NCBI GenBank assembly: GCA_963575645.1
Contig: OY754469.1
Location: forward strand, 47,450,753 to 47,514,752
From: Xanthostigma xanthostigma
Lineage: Eukaryota > Arthropoda > Insecta > Raphidioptera > Raphidiidae
DNA: 64,000 nucleotides
Direction: 5' to 3'
Both the position numbers and the translations under genes were made by a program. Below, piece by piece: positions 3,257 to 60,890 of the stretch. The notes under the pieces were generated by a model. The model ran no database searches. It was not told the DNA's origin and was given only the letters and a program-made list of their open reading frames with translations. Positions within the stretch are counted from its first letter, which is position 1. Every line of letters begins with the position of its first letter.

Positions 3257-4051
3257 TCACGCTTTTTGTATCCAGCGTACAGCCCAAACGACTTAACCGA
3301 TTTTAAAAAACTTTTTTTTGTTCGATTTGTCTCCGGGTAACTTAAATCCTAACGTCGCCCGATTTTTGAATTTTTGCTCCAGAGGGGAGCAATTTAGAAA
3401 AAACGAAGTTTTTCGCTTATAACTCGCTCAATTTAAATCAGATCGGTTCGAAACCTGTCTTAAACGAAAGAGGAGAAAATTTTACATAAATTTCGTACAA
3501 CAGAATTCGCCCAATCACTTTTCTTATACACATTTATATAGAAATAAATTCAATCTGATATAACCGATAGCAAACATCTTTCGGTTATCTCTCTCTGTTG
3601 CACGGTATAACATGGTAATTTAATTATTGCGTATGTTCTGTCTTAAAATAAAATTGGACGATAATTTTATTTATGACAATAATAAAACAAAGGAGATAGC
3701 ATTTGTTCAAAAACGGATGCCATTTGAAATATTTATCAAATGCAACGCCTTCTAAGTTAACAATTTGAATAACTAATTATTAGAACTTAATACTTTGACA
3801 GAATATGCAAACGTCACTTTTGACATTTCTTATCATTCCGACATCAAGGAAGAGCGGATTGAAACCAAATTTTGGGAGGATGTTTGATATGCAAATATGA
3901 AGTGGCCTATTGTTTTTGGGGAACATCGGCGCATGCGTAAAAGAATATATCTCTTATAATGTTGTTTTATATAATAATAATATAGTTTTTAAAACGGTTT
4001 TTACTCTATCTATTTTTACTAGAAATTTTTGTAATTTTTTTGGGGAAAATC

Positions 4052-7000
4052 AGTGACGTCACTATAAATCCAATATGGCGGACTTCTAAAGATGGCGGAC
4101 TTATTTTATTATGCTTTCCTACAATATGGGTATCAAATGAAAGGGCTTGCTGAGAATAACTCGAAAAATAAAGTGACGTCACTCTACATCCAATATGGCG
4201 GACTTCTAAAGATGGCGGACTAATTTTATTATGCTTTCCAACAATATGGGTATCAAATGAAAGGGCTTGCTGAGAATAACTCGAAAAATAAAGTGACGTC
4301 ACTCTAAATCCAATATGGCGGACTTCTAAAGATGGCGGACTAATTTTATTATGTTTTCCTACAATAATATATGGGTATCAAATGAAAAGGCTTGCTGAGA
4401 ATAACTCGAAAAATAAAGTGACGTCACTCTAAATCCAATATGGCGGACTTCTAAAGATGGCGGACTAATTTTATTATGCTTTCCTACAATATGGGTATCA
4501 AATGAAAGGGCTTGCTGAGAATAACTCGAAAAATAAAGTGACGTCACTCTACATCCAATATGGCGGACTTCTAAAGATGGCGGACTAATTTTATTATGTT
4601 TTCCTACAATATGGGTATCAAATGAAAGGGCTTGCTGAGAATAACTCGAAAAATAAAGTGACATTACTCTAAATCCAATATGGCGGACTTCTAAAGATGG
4701 CGGACTAATTTTATTATGTTTTCCTACAATATGGGTATCAAATGAAAGGGCTTGCTGAGAATAACTCGAAAAATAAAGTGGCATTACTCTAAATCCAATA
4801 TGGCGGACTTCTAAAGATGGCGGACTAATTTTATTATGCTTTCCAACAATATGGGTATCAAATGAAAGGGCTTGCTGAGAATAACTCGAAAAATAAAGTG
4901 ACGTCACTCTAAATCCAATATGGCGGACTTCTAAAGATGGCGGCCTAATTTTATTATGCTTTCCTACAATATGGGTATCAAATGAAAGGGCTAGCTGAGA
5001 GTAACTCGAAACATAAAGTGACGTCACTCTAAATCCAATATGGCGGACTTCTAAAGATGGCGGACTAATTTTATTATGCTTTCCTACAATATGGGTATCA
5101 AATGAAAGGGCTTGCTGAGAATAACTCGAAAAATAAAGTAACGTCACTCTAAATCCAATATGGCGGACTTCTAAAGATGGCGGACTAATTTTATTATGCT
5201 TTCCTACAATATGGGTATCAAATGAAAGGGCTTGCTGAGAATAACTCGAAAAATAAAGTGACGTCACTCTAAATCCAATATGGCGGACTTCTAAAGATGG
5301 CGGACTAATTTTATTATGTTTTTCTACAATATGGGTATCAAATGAAAGGGCTTGCTGAGAATAACTCGAAAAATAAAGTGACATTACGCTAAATCCAATA
5401 TGGCGGACTTCTAAAGATGGCGGACTAATTTTATTATGCTTTCCAACAATATGGGTATCAAATGAAAGGGCTTGCTGAGAATAACTCGAAAAATAAAGTG
5501 ACGTCACTCTAAATCCAATATGGCGGACTTCTAAAGATGGCGGGCTAATTTTATTATGCTTTCCTACAATATGGGTATCAAATGAAAGGGCTTGCTGAGA
5601 ATAACTCGAAAAATAAAGTGACGTCACTCTACATCCAATATGGCGGACTTCTAAAAATGGCGGACTAATTTTATTATGTTTTCCTACAATATGGGTATCA
5701 AATGAAAGGGCTTGCTGAGAATAACTCGAAAAATAAAGTGACATTACTCTAAATCCAATATGGCGGACTTCTAAAGATGGCGGACTAATTTTATTATGCT
5801 TTCTAACAATATGGGTATCAAATGAAAGGGCTTGCCGAGAATAACTCGAAAAATAAGTGACGTCACTCTAAATCCAATATGGCGGACTTCTAAAGATGGC
5901 GGACTAATTTTATTATGTTTTCCTACAATATGGGTATCAAATGAAAGGGCTTGCTGAGAATAACTCGAAAAATAAAGTGACGTCACTCTAAATCCAATAT
6001 GGCGGACTTCTAAAGATGGCGACTCATTTTATTATGCTTTCCTACAATATGGGTATCAAATGAAAGGGCTTGCTGAGAATAACTCGAAAAATAAAGTGAC
6101 GTCACTCTACATCCAATATGGCGGACTTCTAAAGATGGTGGACTAATTTTATTATGTTTTCCTACAATATGGGTATCAAATGAAAGGGCTTGCTGAGAAT
6201 AACTCGAAAAATAAAGTGACATTACTCTAAATCCAATATGGCGGACTTCTAAAGATGGCGGACTAATTTTATTATGTTTTCCTACAATATGGGTATCAAA
6301 TGAAAGGGCTTGCTGAGAATAACTCGAAAAATAAAGTGGCATTACTCTAAATCCAATATGGCGGACTTCTAAAGATGGCGGACTAATTTTATTATGCTTT
6401 CCAACAATATGGGTATCAAATGAAAGGGCTTGCTGAGAATAACTCGAAAAATAAAGTGACGTCACTCTAAATCCAATATGGCGGACTTCTAAAGATGGCG
6501 GACTAATTTTATTATGCTTTCCTACAATATGGGTATCAAATGAAAGGGGTTGTTGAGAATAACTCGAAAAATAAAGTGACGTCACTCTACATCCAATATG
6601 GCGGACTTCTAAACATGGCGGACTAATTTTATTATGTTTTCCTACAATATGGGTATCAAATGAAAGGGCTTGCTGAGAATAACTCGAAAAATAAAGTGAC
6701 ATTACTCTAAATCCAATATGGCGGACTTCTAAAGATGGCGGCCTAATTTTATTATGCTTTCCTACAATATTATGGGTATCAAATGAAAGGGCTTGCTGAG
6801 AGTAACTCGAAACATAAGGTGACGTTACTCTAAATCCAATATGGCGGACTTCTAAAGATGGCGGACTAATTTTATTATGCTTTCCTACAATATGGGTACA
6901 AATGAAAGGGCTTGCTGAGAACAACTCGAAAAATAAAGTGACGTCACTCTAAATCCAAAATGGCGGACTTCTAAAGATGGCGGACTAATTTTATTATGCT

Positions 7001-8546
7001 TTCCTACAATATGGGTATCAAATGAAAGGGCTTGCTGAGAATAACTCGAAAAATAAAGTGACGTCACTCTACATCCAATATGGCGGACTTCTAAAGATGG
7101 CGGACTAATTTTATTATGCTTTCCAACAATATGGGTATCAAATGAAAGGGCTTGCTGAGAATAACTCGAAAAATAAAGTGACGTCACTCTAAATCCAATA
7201 TGGCGGACTTCTAAAGATGGCGGACTAATTTTATTATGCTTTCTAATAATATGGGTATCAAATGAAAGGGCTTGCTGAGAATAACTCGAAAAACAAAGTG
7301 ACGTCACTCTAAATCCAATATGGCGGACTTCTAAAGATGGCGGACTAATTTTATTATGTTTTTCTACAATATGGGTATCAAATGAAAGGGCTTGCTGAGA
7401 ATAACTCGAAAAATAAAGTGACATTACGCTAAATCCAATATGGCGGACTTCTAAAGATGGCGGACTAATTTTATTATGCTTTCCTACAATATGGGTATCA
7501 AATGAAAGGGCTTGCTGAGAATAACTAGAAAAATAAAGTGACGTCACTCTAAATCCAATATGGCGGACTTCTAAAGATGGCGGACTAATTTTATTATGCT
7601 TTCCTACAATATGGGTATCAAATGAAAGGGCTTGCTGAGAATAACTCGAAAAATAAAGTGACGTCACTCTACATCCAATATGGCGGACTTCTAAAGATGG
7701 CGGACTAATTTTATTATGCTTTCCAACAATATGGGTATCAAATGAAAGGGCTTGCTGAGAATAACTCGAAAAATAAAGTGACGTCACTCTACATCCAATA
7801 TGGCGGACTTCTAAAGATGGCGGACTAATTTTATTCTGTTTTCCTACAATATGGGTATCAAATGAAAGGGCTTGCTGAGAATAACTCGAAAAATAAAGTG
7901 ACATTACTCTAAATCCAATATGGCGGACTTCTAAAGATGGCGGACTAATTTTATTATGTTTTCCTACAATATGGGTATCAAATGAAAGGGCTTGCTGAGA
8001 ATAACACGAAAAATAAAGTGACATTGCTCTAAATCCAATATGGCGGACTTCTAAAGATGGCGGACTAATTTTATTATGCTTTCCAACAATATGGGTATCA
8101 AATGAAAGGGCTTGCTGAGAATAACTCGAAAAATAAAGTGACGTCACTCTAAATCCAATATGGCGGACTTCTAAAGATGGCGGACTAATTTTATTATGCT
8201 TTCCTACAATATGGGTATCAAATGAAAGGGCTTGCTGAGAAGAACTCGAAAAATAAAGTGACGTCACTCTACATCCAATATGGCGGACTTCTAAAGATGG
8301 CGGACTAATTTTATTATGTTTTCCTACAATATGGGTATCAAATGAAAGGGCTTGCTGAGAATATCTCGAAACATAAAGTGACGTCACTCTAAATCCAATA
8401 TGGCGGACTTCTAAAGATGGCGGACTAATTTTATTATGCTTTCCAACAATATGGGTATCAAATGAAAGGGCTTGCTGAGAATAACTCGAAAAATAAAGTG
8501 ACGTCACTCTAAATCCAATATGGCGGACTTCTAAAGATGGTGACTA
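4052..8546. repeat. 120-bp satellite array, about 38 units
   Basis: Tandem head-to-tail units of 120 bp, mostly a few per cent apart. Each unit has a GTGACGTCAC palindrome (perfect TGACGTCA core in about 26 of 38 by eye; others read GACATTAC or similar), then CCAATATGGCGGAC, then AAAGATGGCGGAC, then an AT-rich half. Units 3, 16, 17 and 23-24 carry small indels. Because 120 is divisible by 3, the minus strand stays open for up to 540 codons as a 40-residue repeat; that is a by-product of the period, not good evidence for a gene. The array sits inside the second ER1 copy and is followed by an M1 element. Confidence 0.97.
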
Positions 8547-10770: not shown

Positions 10771-11296
10771 TTATACGTCTTATCTCGCAGGAAATGTGTA
10801 TGCAGCTTTATCTATAATACATCTATCAACAAGATAGCAGCGGTTTTATATTATTCCATATACAGGTTTGCTGCAGGTATATTATATATAATAGATGTGC
10901 CTACTTAATACAGAAAACTTAGCGAGCTGAATATATTATAATTATATTCATAAGATACATAAAAGTATTTTATACGACAGGTTTTATATTTAAGCAAGTT
11001 GAAATTGTCACGCCGGTATGAGGAAAGAAAATTACATTTCCAATTCATGAAACGACACGAGCACAAAACTCATGAAACGTGTGTGGAAAAGGAAGATGTT
11101 CTCTTTTTCGCTCTCTCTCTCTTATTCTCTTTTTATCTATATATGTGCCTACCTGTATCCATTCACTTAACATATTACAGTGAAATATTTCTTAACTGAA
11201 GATTTCAGAGCTATATAAAAAAATTTTCCGTTCATCCAATAAAAATGATCAATGTGCTTATGACAAATTCATCACTAGGAAGAATAAAATATGTTT
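10771..11296. other. Unassigned AT-rich DNA
   Basis: Nothing supported beyond a TATA-rich tract near 10880-10960 and a (CT)n run near 11109-11130. Confidence 0.4.
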
Positions 11297-11473
11297 AACA
11301 AAAAAATTGAACCGACTTCACACTAAAAAGTAAAAAATAATTGCGTATTGAAATGTTTTGGAGTCGGTGTCAGCCAAAATGAAATCTATTCCGAGAACTA
11401 CACCGACTCCAAAACATTTCAATACGCAATTATTTTTTACTTTTTAGTGTTAAGTCGATTCAATTTTTTTGTT
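11297..11473. repeat. Inverted repeat (foldback MITE)
   Basis: Arms of about 74 bp: ATTGCGTATTGAAATGTTTT and GGAGTCGGTGT at left against ACACCGACTCC and AAAACATTTCAATACGCAAT at right, with a loop of 29 bp. CCGACTTCA near the left edge is a frequent Lepidoptera MITE terminus. Confidence 0.85.
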
Positions 11474-11728
11474 AAAAATATTTTATTTTTCTCTTTTTAG
11501 TGTTAATCTAACACTAAAAATCGGTGAACATACATAAAAAACATTATGCGTGCCTTTGAAATTTGAGAGTTTCCCTCGATTTCTCCGGATTCCACCATCA
11601 GATCCTGACTTGGTTCCGATGGGACTACCTCTGAGGTGCACTCTATCGAATAAAAAAAAATTGAAAATCGGTCCATAATTGACAGAGAAATCGGTGAACA
11701 TACATAAAAAATAAGTACATAAATAAAA
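11474..11728. repeat. Direct repeats of CGGTGAACATACATAAAAAA
   Basis: AATCGGTGAACATACATAAA occurs twice (about 11519 and 11690), enclosing CGATTTCTCCGGATTCCACC and CAGATCCTGACTTGGTTCCG. It looks like part of a CCGACTTCA-type MITE between the foldback and M1 copy b. Confidence 0.5.
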
Positions 11729-14605: not shown

Positions 14606-14619
14606 AATATTAAACTGAA

Positions 14620-15055
14620 CTCTTTGATTAACGTCTGATTAGAACTCTTCAATAAATAAAATTATCGACCAATTTTTCAGACAATATATTAACAAAAAAT
14701 ATCAATAATACATTAAACGATTAACGTTTCGATCCGGATTTGGATCTTCTTCAGAACGGATCTAAAAATATAAAAAAATAATTAATAATTAGTTTCTATT
14801 TATTTTTAATGTAATTCGTGAAAGATTTTTTTGATATATAAATATTGAAAAAATAATATATATTTATATATCAAAAAAATCTTTCACGAGTAACATTAAA
14901 AATAAATAGAAACTAATTATTAATTATTTTTTTATATTTTTAGATCCGTTCTGAAGAAGATCCAAATCCGGATCGAAACGTTAATCGTTTAATGTATTAT
15001 TGATATTTTTTGTTAATATATTGTCTGAAAAATTGGTCGATAATTTTATTTATTG
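14620..15055. mobile_element. Hammerhead-bearing foldback (Penelope-like, non-autonomous)
   Basis: Flanked by the perfect 14-bp duplication AATATTAAACTGAA (14606-14619, 15056-15069). A 30-nt tail (CTCTTTGATTAACGTCTGAT...) is followed by two inverted arms of about 200 bp, from CAATAAATAAAATTATCGAC to its reverse complement. Each arm carries CTGAAGA, a GATCC/GGATC stem and GAAACGTT (plus strand 14951-14982; mirrored on the minus strand near 14720-14752), the order of a hammerhead ribozyme core (CTGANGA - stem II - GAAA - NTH). Penelope-like elements are known to carry hammerheads in their terminal repeats and to have a short tail; the assignment is inference from this layout. Confidence 0.7.
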
Positions 15056-15220
15056 AATATTAAACTGAATATACGAATTGGTACTAAAGCCCAAATAACT
15101 CTTACCTTAAATTTCAAATTTGGTAAATTAGTGAAAACTCATCACTTTGAAATAAGATTGAATAAGGTTTATTACTATGAAGATAATATGTAAAAATTAG
15201 CACAGTAACATCATCTCTCG

Positions 15221-29529: not shown

Positions 29530-29838
29530 ATGTACTTAAACTAAATTTCGCTAGTAGCAATATAAGTTAGATGTAGTGCAAAAAATTATAAGCTATAAGC
29601 TTTGACAAAACATTAAGAGATGTCGCTATGCATCCAGGTCTCGTAAAACTACACATTTATAAAATTACATGCAGCCAGTCACTGGATGTAATTTTTTAAA
29701 TTTGTAGTTTTACGAAACCTGAGTACATGGCGACATCTCTTAAGGTTTTGTTAAAGCTTATAGCCTATAATTTTTTGCACTGCATGTAACTTATATTGCT
29801 ACTGACATCTAGCGAATTTTAGTAGGTATATGTACTGC
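29530..29838. repeat. Long foldback in a Lepidoptera-type MITE
   Basis: Arms of about 145 bp: TCGCTAGTAGCAATATAAGT, GTGCAAAAAATTATAAGC and AAGAGATGTCGC at left, inverted at right as GCGACATCTCTT, GCTTATAGCC and ACTTATATTGCTACTGACAT. It is preceded by GGGTTGCACTCCGGGAGTGC and followed by GGGTCACGTGACCC, AACGCCGCTAAAGAAG and TTTTCACTTCA, recurrent in Lepidoptera. The whole MITE probably spans about 29483-29984. Confidence 0.75.
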
Positions 29839-45316: not shown

Positions 45317-47457
45317 TTAGACTTTTTCAAATTGCATAATTATGACTTGATAAGAAATCAGAATTTGCACAATGTTAATTGCCGTTTTCATATTGACGGG
45401 AAAAAATCCAAAAGCAGTTATTTTTATGTCATAGTTATCCACTTGTGTCTGAAGTAATAAAAGCTGATTACGCTGCATTTTGTTCCTATTTAACAATTCT
45501 GAATCATTTGTCAGAAAATCCCAAAGCTCTTTAGCGATATCTCCTGTCCGTTTTCCTTCGCGTACAATAAATTCGCAAAACAATCCAATCGCCGTTGTAG
45601 CTATCTGAAAATAAAATTATTGTTTAGTCTTATTCATAAAATTAAATTATATCACTATTGAATAAAAAGTATTTTTTACATTTTAGTCCATATTGCTAAT
45701 TGCTATAAACTATAATTTTATAGTTGTAACCCTAAAAAACCAGCACCCAATGACTACGTTTAATATAAATATTTATATAAATTACTAACGGTCCCGACCG
45801 GTTCCACCAGGGTGCAAAAGAACGAATGGAGGGAGGTAAATAAGTACGCACGTTCATCTTAGTTTACCGAGATGAATGTTGTCTCCAAAGTTTAAGTAGT
45901 GTTGATCCAATAGAATATTAAGATTAAGGAAAGTTTTGGTGGAGGATCATAAAATAAGCTTTACCAGTGTTTCGCTAGTGGCCAACGTTTCGAAAAATTT
46001 ATTTTCATCTTCAGCTTGAGGCCCTGAAGATGAAAATAAATTTTTCGAAACGTTGGCCACTAGCGAAACACTGGTAAAGCTTATTTTATGATCCTCAACC
46101 AAAACCTTTCTTCATCTTAGTTGTCTCCAAATTTCAAGATGATAGGAGTTACCATTCAAACGTTTTTATCGGACGGACAAATTTTGAGTTATATTTTGCA
46201 ACATTTTTCATTGATGCTCTGCTCCTATTAGAAGGCTATATAGCCTTCCTAAATAAATGGACTATCCAACAAAAAAACATTCAATTCGAACCAGTAGTTC
46301 CTGAGATTAGCACGTTCAACCAAACAAACAAACAAACTCCTCAGTTTTATACCTATACTTCGATTGTATTTTCATGAGTTCTGAATACGTGGGCAAAATT
46401 TCAAATTCGTCTGGAAATGGGTGAAAATGAATTTGAAAGTTTCCACTAGATAGATACAAACATACATACACACAAGTGAAGTTAATAAAAGAGTGTCAAA
46501 AAAGTTTAGTTTTTTTTTACTTACCAATGCAAATATTGTTAATATTGAGAAGAAAATATATGCCCTTAGCGGTATCGAAGCGATGGTTGAGTGATCGCTT
46601 AAACTTGAAATAACCATGTTATTGTTTCGTAAAGTAAACATACCGAGTGCGAAAAGTACAAACATTACGTCTAATCCGTAGGCCTTGTTGACATCGTTAA
46701 TTCCTTCACATAGCAAAATATGACTCAGAGACAAACATGAAATTCTTTTTGAAAAAACGCGACCTTTACGAACCATTTCGTATGAGTTAAAAAAATCTCT
46801 ATCATTTGTTGTGTTTAAGAGAAATTGTGTTTTCAAACCTTTAAGTTTTTTATTTATGACATAAAATCTATGCAGGGCATAAGATCCTAACAATACCAGA
46901 ATAATAAAATACACAAACATATAAAAAAAGGAAAACACCTCCAAGCTAATGAAAAAAGCTAATTTTGCATCGAAGAAATTAAGATTGGCATAATAATAAA
47001 AACATGAAAAAAATGTGGTGTATGTGACCACGCCAATAGATAAGAATTGAACTGTTCTTCTATATTTTCTGTATTGAGATTTTGTATTCATTTGAAGATA
47101 ATTTTCAATAAGCGCAACTGACTTTAAAAGTTTTTCTATATATTGACAACTAAAAGTTGCCGATCCAATAATAAAAAATACTTCAAAGAATGTATATGCT
47201 ATCAAAACGCACATATTCATAACGACCGCAGCTACTGAAAAATTTTGGATAATGTAATCCTTGAGTCCAAATACCAAGAAGTAAGATTGAATAAAAATAA
47301 TGAAAAGCCACAGCAACGAGTAAAACTTCTGTTGTTTTGATTTTTTGATAGCAGCACAATTTTTAATATCAAAAGGATTTACAGCAAATATTTTTGCAAG
47401 AATAATAATAGGTTCCCAGACACTAACGATATTGTGCTCAATAATAACTGAAGTCAT
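45317..47457 (-). CDS. Gustatory receptor (insect 7tm_7 chemoreceptor), two exons
   Basis: Insect gustatory receptor, a seven-transmembrane ligand-gated channel of taste neurons. Exon 1 is 47457-46525 (311 codons, phase 0) and ends in TTG|GTAAGT. Exon 2 is 45604-45317, follows TTTTCAG, and gives 95 residues plus TAA; total 406 residues, normal for the family. Hydrophobic segments lie near residues 46-66, 76-97, 137-157, 168-195, 262-280, 299-320 and 375-403. Family signatures seen: INDVNKAYG (about 253-261), GFFPVN near 376-381, and SYQVIIMQF (395-403), the counterpart of the C-terminal TYhhhhhQF motif. A phase-0 last intron just before the final exon is usual for these receptors. The 920-bp intron holds a Z repeat and a hammerhead-like foldback. 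No stop or frameshift is seen, so it looks functional. The ligand (bitter, sugar, CO2) cannot be told. Upstream 5' noncoding exons are possible. Confidence 0.9.
45782..46370 (+). mobile_element. Family Z repeat in the receptor intron
   Basis: Same order as 32262-32845 (GGTGCAAAAGAACGAATGG, ...GATGATAGGAGTTACC, AACCAGTAGTTCCTGAGATT) but without the tRNA-like insert. It is split by the hammerhead foldback at 45890-46119. Confidence 0.65.
45890..46119. mobile_element. Hammerhead-bearing foldback in the receptor intron
   Basis: Same plan as 14620-15055: 12-bp duplication GTTGTCTCCAAA (45878-45889, 46120-46131), a 29-nt tail (GTTTAAGTAGTGTTGATCCA...), then arms of about 95 bp. On the plus strand CTGAAGA (46024-46030), stem GAAAA/TTTTC and GAAACGTT are flanked by GGCC/GGCC as stem I; the other arm repeats the core on the minus strand. 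It is inserted in a Z repeat. Confidence 0.7.
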
Positions 47458-49177
47458 TTTTTTCTAAATTTTTATTTAATTATTTTGTGTTTTCAAAATA
47501 TTAAAATGTACGTCTTTTGCAGTGTAGCCTACGAATGAATAATAATATTAATAATATATGGCGGTTAACCTATATCAGCGATAACGCTATACAAATTATT
47601 ATTAATGTTGATTGAATAAAAGGTTATAGAGTTATAAGTTCTATATTAAAAATATAGGTATACCTACCTACTTAAAATAGCGACATGTTCTTGACAACAC
47701 ATTTTATCTAACATTAGCCCCCCCCCCCCGCCCCGTCCGGATTTATATAATATGGCTTTTACTTGCGATTTATTATTATTATAGCGTGGTATACTTAGAT
47801 GATAGTCAAATTTTCTAATATGAAACCCACCCTTGGCCCATTCGGGCAGTTTTTCAAAAGATCGTTAAACTTGTATTTCTTTATTTTCTAAGAAGATATC
47901 CACTCCCGATTTTACACTTTCGGATAGGAATTTAGATAATTAAACACCGACGTCTTCGATTCGAATCAAATTTCGTATTTTTAACTCAAAGGCCATTTTT
48001 TGTAATTCCCCTTTTCATCACCTTAAAAGTTGATTAAAAAAAAAATTATAGAACATGTATTTGCTTATTTTTAGTGAAAAGTTCGTATCTTGAATTCATT
48101 ACCTCCCACTTTGACTAGGCGTGAGATATAAACATTTTGTCTCTAAACCCTCTTTTGATTGCAGGTGTTTGCTTAATGTGGGCCACTCCCTTAAATAAGA
48201 TTACCTTTACGAACAGGTTTTTTGCCCCGCGCTAAGCAGGTCGTGCAGGCTTATGCTTGACAAGGGTGCGCGATCTTTTAAGGCATTCTAATAATTGTTT
48301 TTATTAGTTACGAGGTATTGTCTACAAATCTATCGATATGTAATGTGTATGCTATAAAAGAAGACAAGTAAAAAACGTACATGAAAATATTATGTTTAAT
48401 CTATATCCAATAACATGTTTTATAATTAAACATTATTATTATTAGAAAATGGATTCAATTATTTCATTTATTTTTAATGACCAAGTCCATTAGTATAGTT
48501 TCATAAACCTGTAATGATTTTGCATTTTACTTTAGCTCCAACTAATACTACCAGTGAATAGTGATTATGATGAAAGCAAAAATATGTAGATACAGTAAAC
48601 TTCTTTTTGTTGCGTAACGCAGATCAGCACCCTCCGGCCGACAACTACTTAAAAATTACAAATTGAAAGAGCACCCCCTTTAAAGTACGTTAGGTACAAC
48701 AAAAATTGGTCAGAATACTTTCCTAGGATATCAAAACGTCGAGATCTAATGAAAACTCGATGTTCTAAAATAGAACCAAGACCAATTATAACCCCTTTTG
48801 ATTTGAGAATTTTCAATAACGAGAAGTTAATAAAAATTAACTTTTTATGACTGCTACATCATTGCCTCAACCCTGACTAGTTCTAATACATGTCGGTAGA
48901 TTGTAGCACACATTACGCTTACAAGTACGGACGTCTAGGAGCACATACGGTAAACTTAAAATCAATGAGCTAGAGCTGTTACGTGTTCTTTCTTTCTAAC
49001 ATACGATCTTCATAGCACTAAAACGAGATAGAAATACTTGACATGAACATAGTGTGCTAAATTACGAATTGCAAGTTGTGGAATTTATGCTTATCTGTCA
49101 AAACATTAATATTTATTTAGGAGATAAATATCAATAAATATTACAGTTCGATTTCAATCACAATTCAGCAATCATTT
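47458..49177. other. Intergenic region between divergent receptor and nucleotidase genes
   Basis: 1.7 kb separates the two start codons and must hold both promoters unless they have distant 5' exons. I see a C-rich run near 47717-47732 and a transposon-like relic near 48180-48260 that resembles 59262-59345 (both contain CGAACAG and GGTCGTGCAGG). No clear TATA box can be fixed. Just before the nucleotidase start an initiator-like TTCAGCA lies near 49163, too weak to annotate as a promoter. Confidence 0.5.
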
Positions 49178-52100: not shown

Positions 52101-53820
52101 TTCAAAATAAAACGATTAAGCGAAATATGCTTAGATTAAATGTTACTCGTTTCCGAAATACGGGGTGTTGAAGTTGAAAACTGAAAAATTACTAATGTCC
52201 ATAATTTTTTTAATACACCGTATAATTTTACTCAAATCGGTACACTTGTTAAATATCATAAAATGCACCTAACAATAAAAAAATTAGTTCAGTACGCTCT
52301 ACCAGTGGCGTACGGCCGGAGTAAGTAATGCTTGTACCCCTTCTAAATGTTACGCCGCTGTCTAAATTTTTATTTTGACTATAATTTTAATTTTTTTGAT
52401 ATTTTCTAAGTCAATAATGTACACTTGTTAGTTTGTTGTAAAGTCATTGGTTTTCGAGATATTCTTAATGGGACACCCTGTAGATACTGTTGATGATTAT
52501 TTTTAATTGTATTTTACAAGAAGTAACTTCAAAAAGAATCGTTTTTAGTTCTGAAATACCCATATTTTTGTATCGCTACACAATAGTAATTACAGTACCA
52601 TGATGAAAAAAAATCAAGGCAAACTTAACCTACATTCTAGTCGATAATGTCAAAGAACCCTTGACAATACATTAATGGACTGTTCACGTCATACCTTCAA
52701 ATAGAACCAGCATAATTATCATAAATATTTATATTTAATAGATTGCGGATACACTAGCGCCTCCTGTACCTTTTAGAAGCCATTTTGTACGTGGAAAACG
52801 CCGTTAAAGCGCGCGAGATTAAAAAATATTTATTATTTTATAATATGATTTTATTGAGAAAAACGACAAAACTCACAGTAAACAGTGATATTTCGCTCCA
52901 AAACCTATTTTTATACTGAAACGTTTCAAAAATTACAAAATTGAGCATAAATATAATGTAAAAGCTTAGAACATTTTACATTGTCAATTTGTTCTAAGCT
53001 TTTATATTATATTTATGCTCAGTTTTGTAGTTTTTGAAACGTTTCAATATAAAAATAGGTTTTGGAGCGAAATATCACTGTTTACTGCGAATTTTATTGT
53101 TTTTCCATTAACATCATATTATAGAATATTTAATCTTTTTGAATCCCGCGCGATTTTTACGGCGTTTTCCACGTACAAAATGGCTTCTAATTGGAACCAT
53201 TACGCACAATGCTCAAGGATAGGCATCCGCTATCTATTAATATAATATATATCTATGATAATTATCAATATAACGAAATCTAATAGACTTCTAATTTACA
53301 ATTCACTATTTTGTGGTCATAAATACTTCCGCAAAATTGATGAAAAGTTAAATGAAGTTTCACTAACTGAATGCTAGTCAATACTACAACCTCGAAGTCT
53401 GTAACCAGGAGACCCGGCCCAAGCGTCAGCTACTGGGTAACGCACACACGTTAATGGCTTACATGTGTGTAGTGTCTGTGAAGTTAAACAACTTTGGTAA
53501 CTATGGCGAAAACAGGTTGGAAAGAGCCGAAGTTTTCCCAGGTAGTGATAACAGCGCCATCTCGCGTGCGCCAGAAAACGGTCCAGCTCGAAACACAGCA
53601 AGCATAGGAAGCTAAGTCTCCTGGTTACAGACTTCGTGAATCGTGACTAAAACAATAGTAATAATCAAATGACAACGTCGAACTATTTAATCTGTATTTT
53701 TTTTTTACGTAGGTGCAGGAACATTTAGACGGATTCATGGAAAGTTTTGATATTGTTTTGGTTGATGATCAAACAATGGACGTTATAACTGCTATTGTCA
53801 GATTAGTACTTAGATCCTAA
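49178..53820 (+). CDS. NT5C3: Cytosolic 5'-nucleotidase III (HAD superfamily), six exons
   Basis: Cytosolic 5'-nucleotidase III family, which dephosphorylates pyrimidine monophosphates and/or 7-methylguanosine monophosphate in the cytosol. Exons: 49178-49394, 49480-49639, 49717-49779, 49881-50010, 51705-51938, 53713-53820; 912 nt, 303 residues plus stop, matching the family's roughly 300. All introns are GT-AG and the phases (1,2,2,0,0) join. HAD motif I is DFDQTLT with nucleophile D52 and acid D54; motif II is VFSAGLGDS (S168); the lysine loop is near K217; motif IV is GDTVGDASMADG with D242 and D246. Other family blocks are LSSFG, YRPMELDP and WW. ATG at 49178 opens the frame; a second in-frame ATG at 49202 is an equally good start. 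Introns 4 and 5 (1.7-1.8 kb) are swollen by transposons. Which substrate (cN-IIIA or cN-IIIB type) is not decided here. Confidence 0.93.
50273..51546 (+). mobile_element. Family Y element, copy 4, in nucleotidase intron 4
   Basis: Starts GGAGGTTGAGCCGTTTTACG and ends CGCATCAACCTCC, with TTAA on both sides (50269-50272, 51547-51550). It is interrupted by an M1 element at 50361-50935. It supplies most of the 1.7-kb intron. Confidence 0.85.
50361..50935 (-). mobile_element. M1 element, copy d, nested in Y copy 4
   Basis: ATTGATTGTCTGTAAAGTCG at left, CGTTATCACGTCA at right. About 300 bp of unrelated AT-rich sequence lies in the middle. It splits Y between TTTTCTGTAAAAA and AATCCAAAAT. Confidence 0.75.
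52050..52482. mobile_element. TIR element with ACAGGGTGTCC ends, in nucleotidase intron 5
   Basis: TATACAGGGTGTCCAATTAA at left and TTCTTAATGGGACACCCTGT at right are inverted, the terminus seen in many insect DNA elements. A second relic with CAGTGGCGTACGGCC and ATGTTACGCCGCTG lies within (52307-52366). Confidence 0.75.
52738..53242. repeat. Large foldback MITE in nucleotidase intron 5
   Basis: Arms of about 230 bp around a short loop near 52975-53000. Pairs include AGCCATTTTGTACGTGGAAA / TTTCCACGTACAAAATGGCT, GATATTTCGCTCCAAAACCT / AGGTTTTGGAGCGAAATATC and AATTGAGCATAAATATAATG / its inverse; ends AATAGATTGCGGAT / ATCCGCTATCTATT. Confidence 0.85.
53393..53636. mobile_element. MITE with perfect 21-bp TIRs in nucleotidase intron 5
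   Basis: CGAAGTCTGTAACCAGGAGA(C) at left is exactly inverted at right. The interior of about 200 bp is GC-richer than its surroundings. It ends 76 bp before exon 6. Confidence 0.8.
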
Positions 53821-60639: not shown

Positions 60640-60652
60640 AAGAATTACTTTA

Positions 60653-60708
60653 AATCTTTGATTAACGTCTGAATAGAACTCTTCAAATAAATAAATTTTA
60701 TTTATTTG
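60653..60708. mobile_element. 56-bp minimal insertion of the same tail family
   Basis: Flanked by the 13-bp duplication AAGAATTACTTTA (60640-60652, 60709-60721). It consists of a 31-nt tail nearly identical to that at 14620 (CTTTGATTAACGTCTGA(A/T)TAGAACTCTT) and 12-bp inverted arms CAAATAAATAAA / TTTATTTATTTG. The hammerhead part is absent. Confidence 0.7.
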
Positions 60709-60890
60709 AAGAATTACTTTAGATACCATTTTTTTATAACTGATAATTTTGTATAAAAACCTATTATGAGCATAGGAAACGATATACTATCTATTATATA
60801 TGACCTTTCATAGGGCAACATAATAAACATTAGTCGTACGGACAATGTCAAATTTTAAGATGTTTGCTCCTAAAATTTAGTTTTTGACTT

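Follow-up and report, generated by a model that had tools for sequence, protein, structure and literature searches.

A short inverted-repeat insertion in Xanthostigma xanthostigma as a probable two-cDNA product of a Penelope-like element

It is not established how Penelope-like elements (PLEs) finish inserting, and two of their traits, the inverted repeats and an optional tail of 30-40 nt at one end, are oddities of long standing. The small hammerheads of these elements are reportedly lacking in helix III, a description said to go back to Lunse et al. in 2017. With respect to the insertion reaction, the portion of an anole PLE study available to us (PMC11167929) describes an enzyme that cuts and extends both strands in vitro, with reverse transcription starting at two internal sites that bound the tail and with no start-site difference between the top and bottom strand. 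The same portion states that the anole hammerhead cleaved only with protein, and that core mutants left in vitro insertion unchanged. Minimal PLE hammerheads without helix III also appear in the accessible part of PMC6155905, and the authors of a report on bdelloid rotifer Penelope elements (PMC3846280, likewise available in part) favored self-priming on an antisense template.

Here, we analyzed a 64-kb stretch of X. xanthostigma DNA (hereafter, the window), in which a preliminary description had singled out an insertion at 14606..15069, designated element A (Table 1). The layout given in that description was recovered in each of its parts. Specifically, the 14-bp direct repeat is exact, the 30-nt tail separates the left duplication from the left arm, with no counterpart on the right side, and the inverted arms of about 200 bp correspond to 14648-14845 and 14860-15057, which are 198 nt in length, 99% complementary and 14 nt apart. 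CTGAAGA, the GATCC/GGATC stem and GAAACGTT are present in both arms, in opposite orientation. Where tail meets arm and where arm meets duplication, a few bases are assignable either way, and this microhomology renders the border positions uncertain by 1-3 nt.

Table 1. Parts of element A and of two related foldbacks in the window.
Feature	Position	Strand	Remarks
Element A, left target-site duplication, AATATTAAACTGAA	14606..14619		Exact match to 15056-15069
Element A, 30-nt tail between two inferred reverse transcription start sites	14620..14649	- (RNA sense)	Same tail in 39/39 genome copies and window copy B
Element A, left arm, putative pseudo-LTR cDNA begun at tail side	14650..14845	-	Inverted repeat with 14860-15057
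Minimal hammerhead-like core, left arm, CTGAAGA-stem II-GAAACGTT	14719..14754	-	
Element A, arm-arm junction	14846..14859		Unequal arm ends, AT-rich point; varies among copies
Element A, right arm, putative second pseudo-LTR cDNA begun at inner site, tail-less	14860..15055	+	
Minimal hammerhead-like core, right arm	14951..14986	+	
Element A, right target-site duplication, AATATTAAACTGAA	15056..15069		Exact match to 14606-14619
Copy B, same family as element A	60640..60724		Duplication 15/16 nt, same tail, arms ~9-14 nt
Foldback C, second family, same layout	45878..46138		Duplication 17/19 nt

The pattern CTGANGA-N8-30-GAAAC occurs four times in the window, twice in element A and twice in foldback C, against 0.40 expected, and four occurrences were reached in none of 100 window shuffles; none of 100 Markov-resampled windows contained the core with stem II and GAAACGTT. 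Among 1500 random flank pairs from the window, 108 had a direct repeat scoring at least 13; 105 of these score at least 18 and would be attributable to the satellite array at ~4-8.5 kb, so that 3 remain. Of 11 window palindromes compared, three had a flanking repeat of this strength (element A, copy B and foldback C). Taken together, the shuffles and random flank pairs make chance an unlikely source of the element A cores and duplication. A 9-nt stretch, ACGTTAATC, is common to the tail in RNA sense (14620-14649) and the hammerhead cleavage region (14951-15000); this match is weak, with 70 of 5000 random pairs sharing as much, and is possibly due to chance.

Foldback C, which gave no BLAST match to element A, has a one-sided stretch of ~20-25 nt and 103-nt arms (93%), each containing CTGAAGATG..CGAAACGTT. 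Its core takes the hammerhead form by folding energy, with a GGCC/GGCC stem I, and an ATG is located at the start of stem II, 25 nt ahead of the expected cut. Elsewhere in the window, a 25-nt match (96%) to the element A arm end at 3650-3674 is possibly an old fragment of the same family, and long open frames of a repeated peptide (KHNKISPPSLEVRHIG..) on the - strand at ~4006-8543 are evidently part of a minisatellite or satellite array. Close palindromes at 29553-29803, 52858-53105 and 11279-11491, with arms of 92-122 nt (87-96%) and without long flanking duplications, are probably remnants of other mobile elements. An exon-like frame at 51555-52031 matches the pyrimidine 5'-nucleotidase UMPH-1 (4.7e-31), and a 363-aa frame at 46372-47463 (- strand) had no Pfam match; the latter may resemble an insect chemoreceptor.

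The genome (623 Mb, 28 contigs) was searched for copies with the whole of element A as query, and the best 40 of 1636 first-look candidates were scored as element A and 39 further loci, all taken with their flanks. Within this best 40, all 39 further copies share the tail and arm ends of element A, with the tail leading each one and a second tail on the right in none. The tail start falls mostly within 5 nt of one place, and the other arm ends at a second place that is likewise constant to a few nt. In 35 of the 39 copies the insertion is flanked by a direct repeat scoring at least 9 (at least 13 in 29), its sequence being individual to each of the 35, and a clear duplication was not found in L019, L048, L051 and L052. 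The tail-side flank is 79% A+T (39 x 18 nt). Because these copies were ranked by whole-query similarity, their similar lengths are partly a selection effect. A second sample, obtained with a 71-nt tail query, comprised 27 other loci, of which 14 had both ends located via a flanking repeat scoring at least 10, with inserts of 60-950 nt, and 13 had no clear right end. Among these 14, L055 seems to consist of one cDNA and to lack a second arm.

In terms of parentage, a longer locus found with the tail (L066) contains, inside its two ends, the terminal part of an open frame that includes a GIY-YIG domain (22.9 bits against a cut-off of 22.6), and next to it a pseudo-LTR carrying the hammerhead core. 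The L066 protein piece gave 3083 first-look candidates, the best 150 of which match at 80-100%, and several of these best 150 endonuclease (EN) matches sit in stop-free frames of at least 822 codons. Identity of the element A arm to the pseudo-LTRs of these elements is 90-92% for L124/L125 and L126, at both ends, and 80-83% for L122 and L123. One element on contig C9 (L124-L127) has two head-to-head 728-codon frames, one tail and a 13-bp duplication. An alignment (A1) of four PLE frames of this genome, L127 and three others, displays a reverse transcriptase (RT) core with invariant YVDD and a C-terminal endonuclease; within it, L127 is 91% identical to L110. In Pfam, PF00078 was matched in two of the four members (best 1.8e-11) and GIY-YIG in three, and all 16 solved-structure matches of the A1 profile are reverse transcriptases. 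Taken singly, the 728-aa frame of L127 had no Pfam match, and GIY-YIG was likewise not matched in Pfam by the L060 or L122 pieces.

Four of the relatives with RT/GIY-YIG frames thus bear terminal repeats 80-92% identical to the element A arm, which identifies the parents as PLEs, and from these comparisons it is well settled that the parent of element A was an endonuclease-bearing PLE. The Penelope-like origin put forward in the preliminary description is thereby upheld, and the genome-wide search it had proposed returned both the 39 copies with common tail and arm boundaries and relatives with RT and GIY-YIG frames. Neither of the contrary outcomes it had named, a lack of same-ended copies or DNA-transposon parents, occurred. 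Several further PLE families are present in the same genome (L082-L101), whose endonuclease pieces have 32-55% identity to the L066 piece.

The single tail was also evident in 12 elements with both ends read that were found without the tail as query (L103, L106/L107, a short element in L109, L108/L109, L111, L113, L114/L115, L117, L118, L121, L126 and L124/L125). In all 12, exactly one end is tailed, an outcome whose probability would not exceed 0.5 to the 12th power if each end chose independently, and the duplication scores at least 13 in 11 of the 12, the exception being the short L109 element. L102 was kept out of this set because it and L066, a tail-query find, represent one insertion; L102 is counted among ten EN-bearing elements discussed below. 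Nine EN loci for which both element ends were not obtained were excluded (L104, L105, L110, L112, L116, L119, L120, L122 and L123). Among the best 150 of the 3083 matches, EN neighbors within 8 kb form 18 pairs, of which 17 are head-to-head, one is tail-to-tail and none is in tandem.

For the comparison of arms, 52 copies were mapped, namely the 40 A-query copies, copy B and 11 of the 27 tail-query loci; L066, L072 and L075, in which the sequence is longer or of another kind, were not counted, and the 13 loci without a clear right end fall outside this set. Mapping of arm ends is approximate in AT-rich sequence, with poor scores for L055, L065, L071, L076 and L081. Both arms of a copy come from one source. 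At five diagnostic columns, the left and right arms are identical in 188 of 189 comparisons, and over the outer 165 nt the within-copy difference has a mean of 2.1% (max 11.5%), as opposed to 5.4% between copies. In a permutation test, none of 10000 shuffled arm pairings was as similar as the real within-copy pairs. Nearest-neighbor pairing, in which an arm's own partner was nearest for 27 of 80 arms, is not decisive since several copies share near-identical arms, and the diagnostic columns and permutation test were used for this reason. As the two arms begin alike, each insertion holds an inner clock.

Building from these observations, we consider element A to be, with good probability, a short Penelope-like insertion composed of two head-to-head pseudo-LTR cDNAs, one for each cut target strand. 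This reading draws on what can be read from the genomic copies, namely the parentage, outer boundaries that are fixed, a single tail in each insertion, unequal arms of which either may be the longer, and one source for both arms. In the reaction we envisage, the element enzyme would cut both target strands with a stagger of ~12-17 nt, and each target 3' end would prime reverse transcription inside the element RNA. The cDNA begun at an outer site would include the tail, and the second cDNA would begin at an inner site, ~30 nt closer to the RNA 5' end. The two would extend in the direction of that end and stop at different points, after which the truncated cDNA ends would be joined at AT-rich spots to yield duplication-tail-arm-junction-arm-duplication. 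We infer the cutting and priming steps, which have an in vitro precedent in the anole PLE as presented in the available portion of PMC11167929. The joining step would belong to the same scheme, with either one RNA copied twice or two RNAs used. Overall, a two-ended mechanism for the element A family is well supported but indirect, as it is deduced from genomic footprints. Observations that speak against it are the four copies without a clear duplication, the 13 tail-query loci without a clear right end, the single-cDNA look of L055 and the nearly symmetric elements described below.

Arm length bears directly on a snapback route, in which a single cDNA from one target strand folds back and copies itself to form the inverted arm, and which has its source in the self-priming idea found in the accessible part of PMC3846280. 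Such a route accounts for the identical source of both arms, as well as for the near-symmetric centers of three of the ten EN-bearing elements and of L127, and it may act in some insertions of this kind. An arm formed by snapback cannot exceed its template, yet 28 of the 52 mapped copies have a tail-less arm that exceeds the tailed one (the reverse holds in 23, and one copy has equal arms). Among the 40 A-query copies, each arm is the longer in 20, by >5 nt in 17 for the tail-less and 16 for the tailed arm. The remaining seven EN-bearing elements have an unpaired middle of 159-1780 nt, which resides in the tailed arm in three and in the tail-less arm in four, where the excess reaches 1780 nt. 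Moreover, the tail cannot come from a tail-less cDNA, and the fixed inner end of the second arm is left unexplained. Snapback is accordingly an unlikely origin for element A, and the copies argue against self-priming as a general route.

The preliminary description had viewed the insertion as a separate non-autonomous element replicating as a tail plus inverted repeats. Long palindromes are prone to asymmetric deletions, and a foldback copied whole with later erosion of its center would be in keeping with the similar lengths of the 40 A-query copies, which come in part from the ranking by whole-query similarity. A fixed-length family was our own first reading of these copies, and was dropped once their centers proved different. 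The 52 mapped copies have 52 different arm-length pairs, and no exact junction is common to two of them (four pairs lie within one base), with arm ends clustering in A/T tracts at a small number of lengths, among which 175 and 201-204 nt stand out. The outer arms are identical in seven of the 40 copies, yet in six of these seven the arm ends are unequal by 7-42 nt, each differently. Same-ended copies also include some of 55-158 nt (B, L079, L080 and L081) and others of 773-950 nt, and arms agree within a copy rather than by side. Copying of a whole foldback is therefore decidedly improbable; since junctions differ from copy to copy, each insertion more probably formed its palindrome afresh, from PLE RNA. 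A MITE or foldback DNA transposon would also have long inverted repeats and a target duplication, but we regard this origin as barely credible given the asymmetric ends with a tail on one side, the lack of a fixed duplication length and the same-ended relatives with RT and GIY-YIG frames, whose identity as parents contradicts it. Palindromes can arise from library chimeras, and a false hairpin in the assembly could be explained in this way; 39 copies elsewhere with differing flanks, 35 of them with a flanking duplication of their own, make such an artefact extremely improbable.

Returning to the two-cDNA reading, a broader form of it is quite possible, though we advance it tentatively: PLE insertion may be regularly two-ended, with a dimeric enzyme that primes from both cut strands, copies one RNA twice and leaves exactly one tail, the foldbacks being short by-products. 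The genomic record suggests that each start site is used once per insertion, and a dimer copying one RNA twice with its polymerases ~30 nt apart would provide both the common source and the single tail. With start sites that would be close to the 5' end of the transcript, ordinary messages would give pseudo-LTR foldbacks only. If this is true, foldbacks are the expected short products as opposed to a separate element family. With many insertions in one genome serving as a record of the reaction, the two-ended mechanism is directly testable. Two-ended, one-tail priming was not found in the titles and abstract openings of the Penelope papers listed on head-to-head arrangement, terminal inverted repeats, GIY-YIG, target-primed reverse transcription, twin priming or both strands, and may exist in print.

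As to the ribozyme, 76 of the 80 arms of the 40 copies (best 40 of 1636 candidates) retain the core pattern; since these copies are close relatives, this conservation says little about selection. The Rfam check proposed earlier came out negative, with no hammerhead family matched in the whole window or in both foldbacks. The best sub-threshold matches in the foldbacks were mostly to microRNA-precursor models, which we take as a response to long palindromes. In the element A family, folding energy predicts that the core is covered by a competing hairpin. The putative ribozyme may cleave when made from either strand, or in dimeric form. The earlier notion of the arms as a device for making a ribozyme from either strand is less well supported than their incidental formation during two-ended reverse transcription.

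Retrozymes have a circular RNA stage and consist of hammerhead units in direct repeat, and this assignment was rejected as the arms are inverted in element A and in all 39 further copies. A scan of viral contigs for the tail gave 0 stretches. The corresponding scan for the hammerhead-like core gave five contigs with long ORFs and no inverted repeats of at least 25 nt in the five loci, and was taken as chance.

Comparison with known systems places element A close to several described elements. Animal retrozymes, in the accessible part of PMC7229834, are, like element A with its putative cores, short hammerhead-bearing units without a coding frame; the arms of element A differ from them in being inverted and in ending at putative PLE start sites. 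The small PLE hammerheads, as presented in the available part of PMC6155905, have the same CTGANGA-stem II-GAAAC arrangement with GTT and no closed stem III, and differ from the element A family in its predicted covering of the core by a competing hairpin. Bdelloid rotifer Penelope elements (PMC3846280, available portion) provide a further likeness in that one of their two inverted pseudo-LTRs carries a 31-bp tail, and these families also have target duplications and inverted junctions, the duplications being 8-10 bp in contrast to ~12-17 in the element A family. The anole PLE (PMC11167929, in the portion at hand), an endonuclease-bearing element of the Penelope/Poseidon type, shares with the element A family an RT and GIY-YIG frame, a pseudo-LTR with a minimal hammerhead core (putative in the element A family) and AT-rich targets, as well as a tail bounded by two internal reverse transcription start sites, which for element A are inferred. 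Anole pseudo-LTRs occur in tandem arrays, whereas none of the 18 neighboring EN pairs does so here, and the element A family further differs in having one tail per insertion and two unequal cDNAs. As the start sites described in that portion are alike on the top and bottom strand, a strict one-tail rule is not predicted from it. The two-cDNA reading would extend the published anole biochemistry (PMC11167929, as far as its available portion goes): the kind of element is already known, and the one-tail, two-cDNA rule is the new part.
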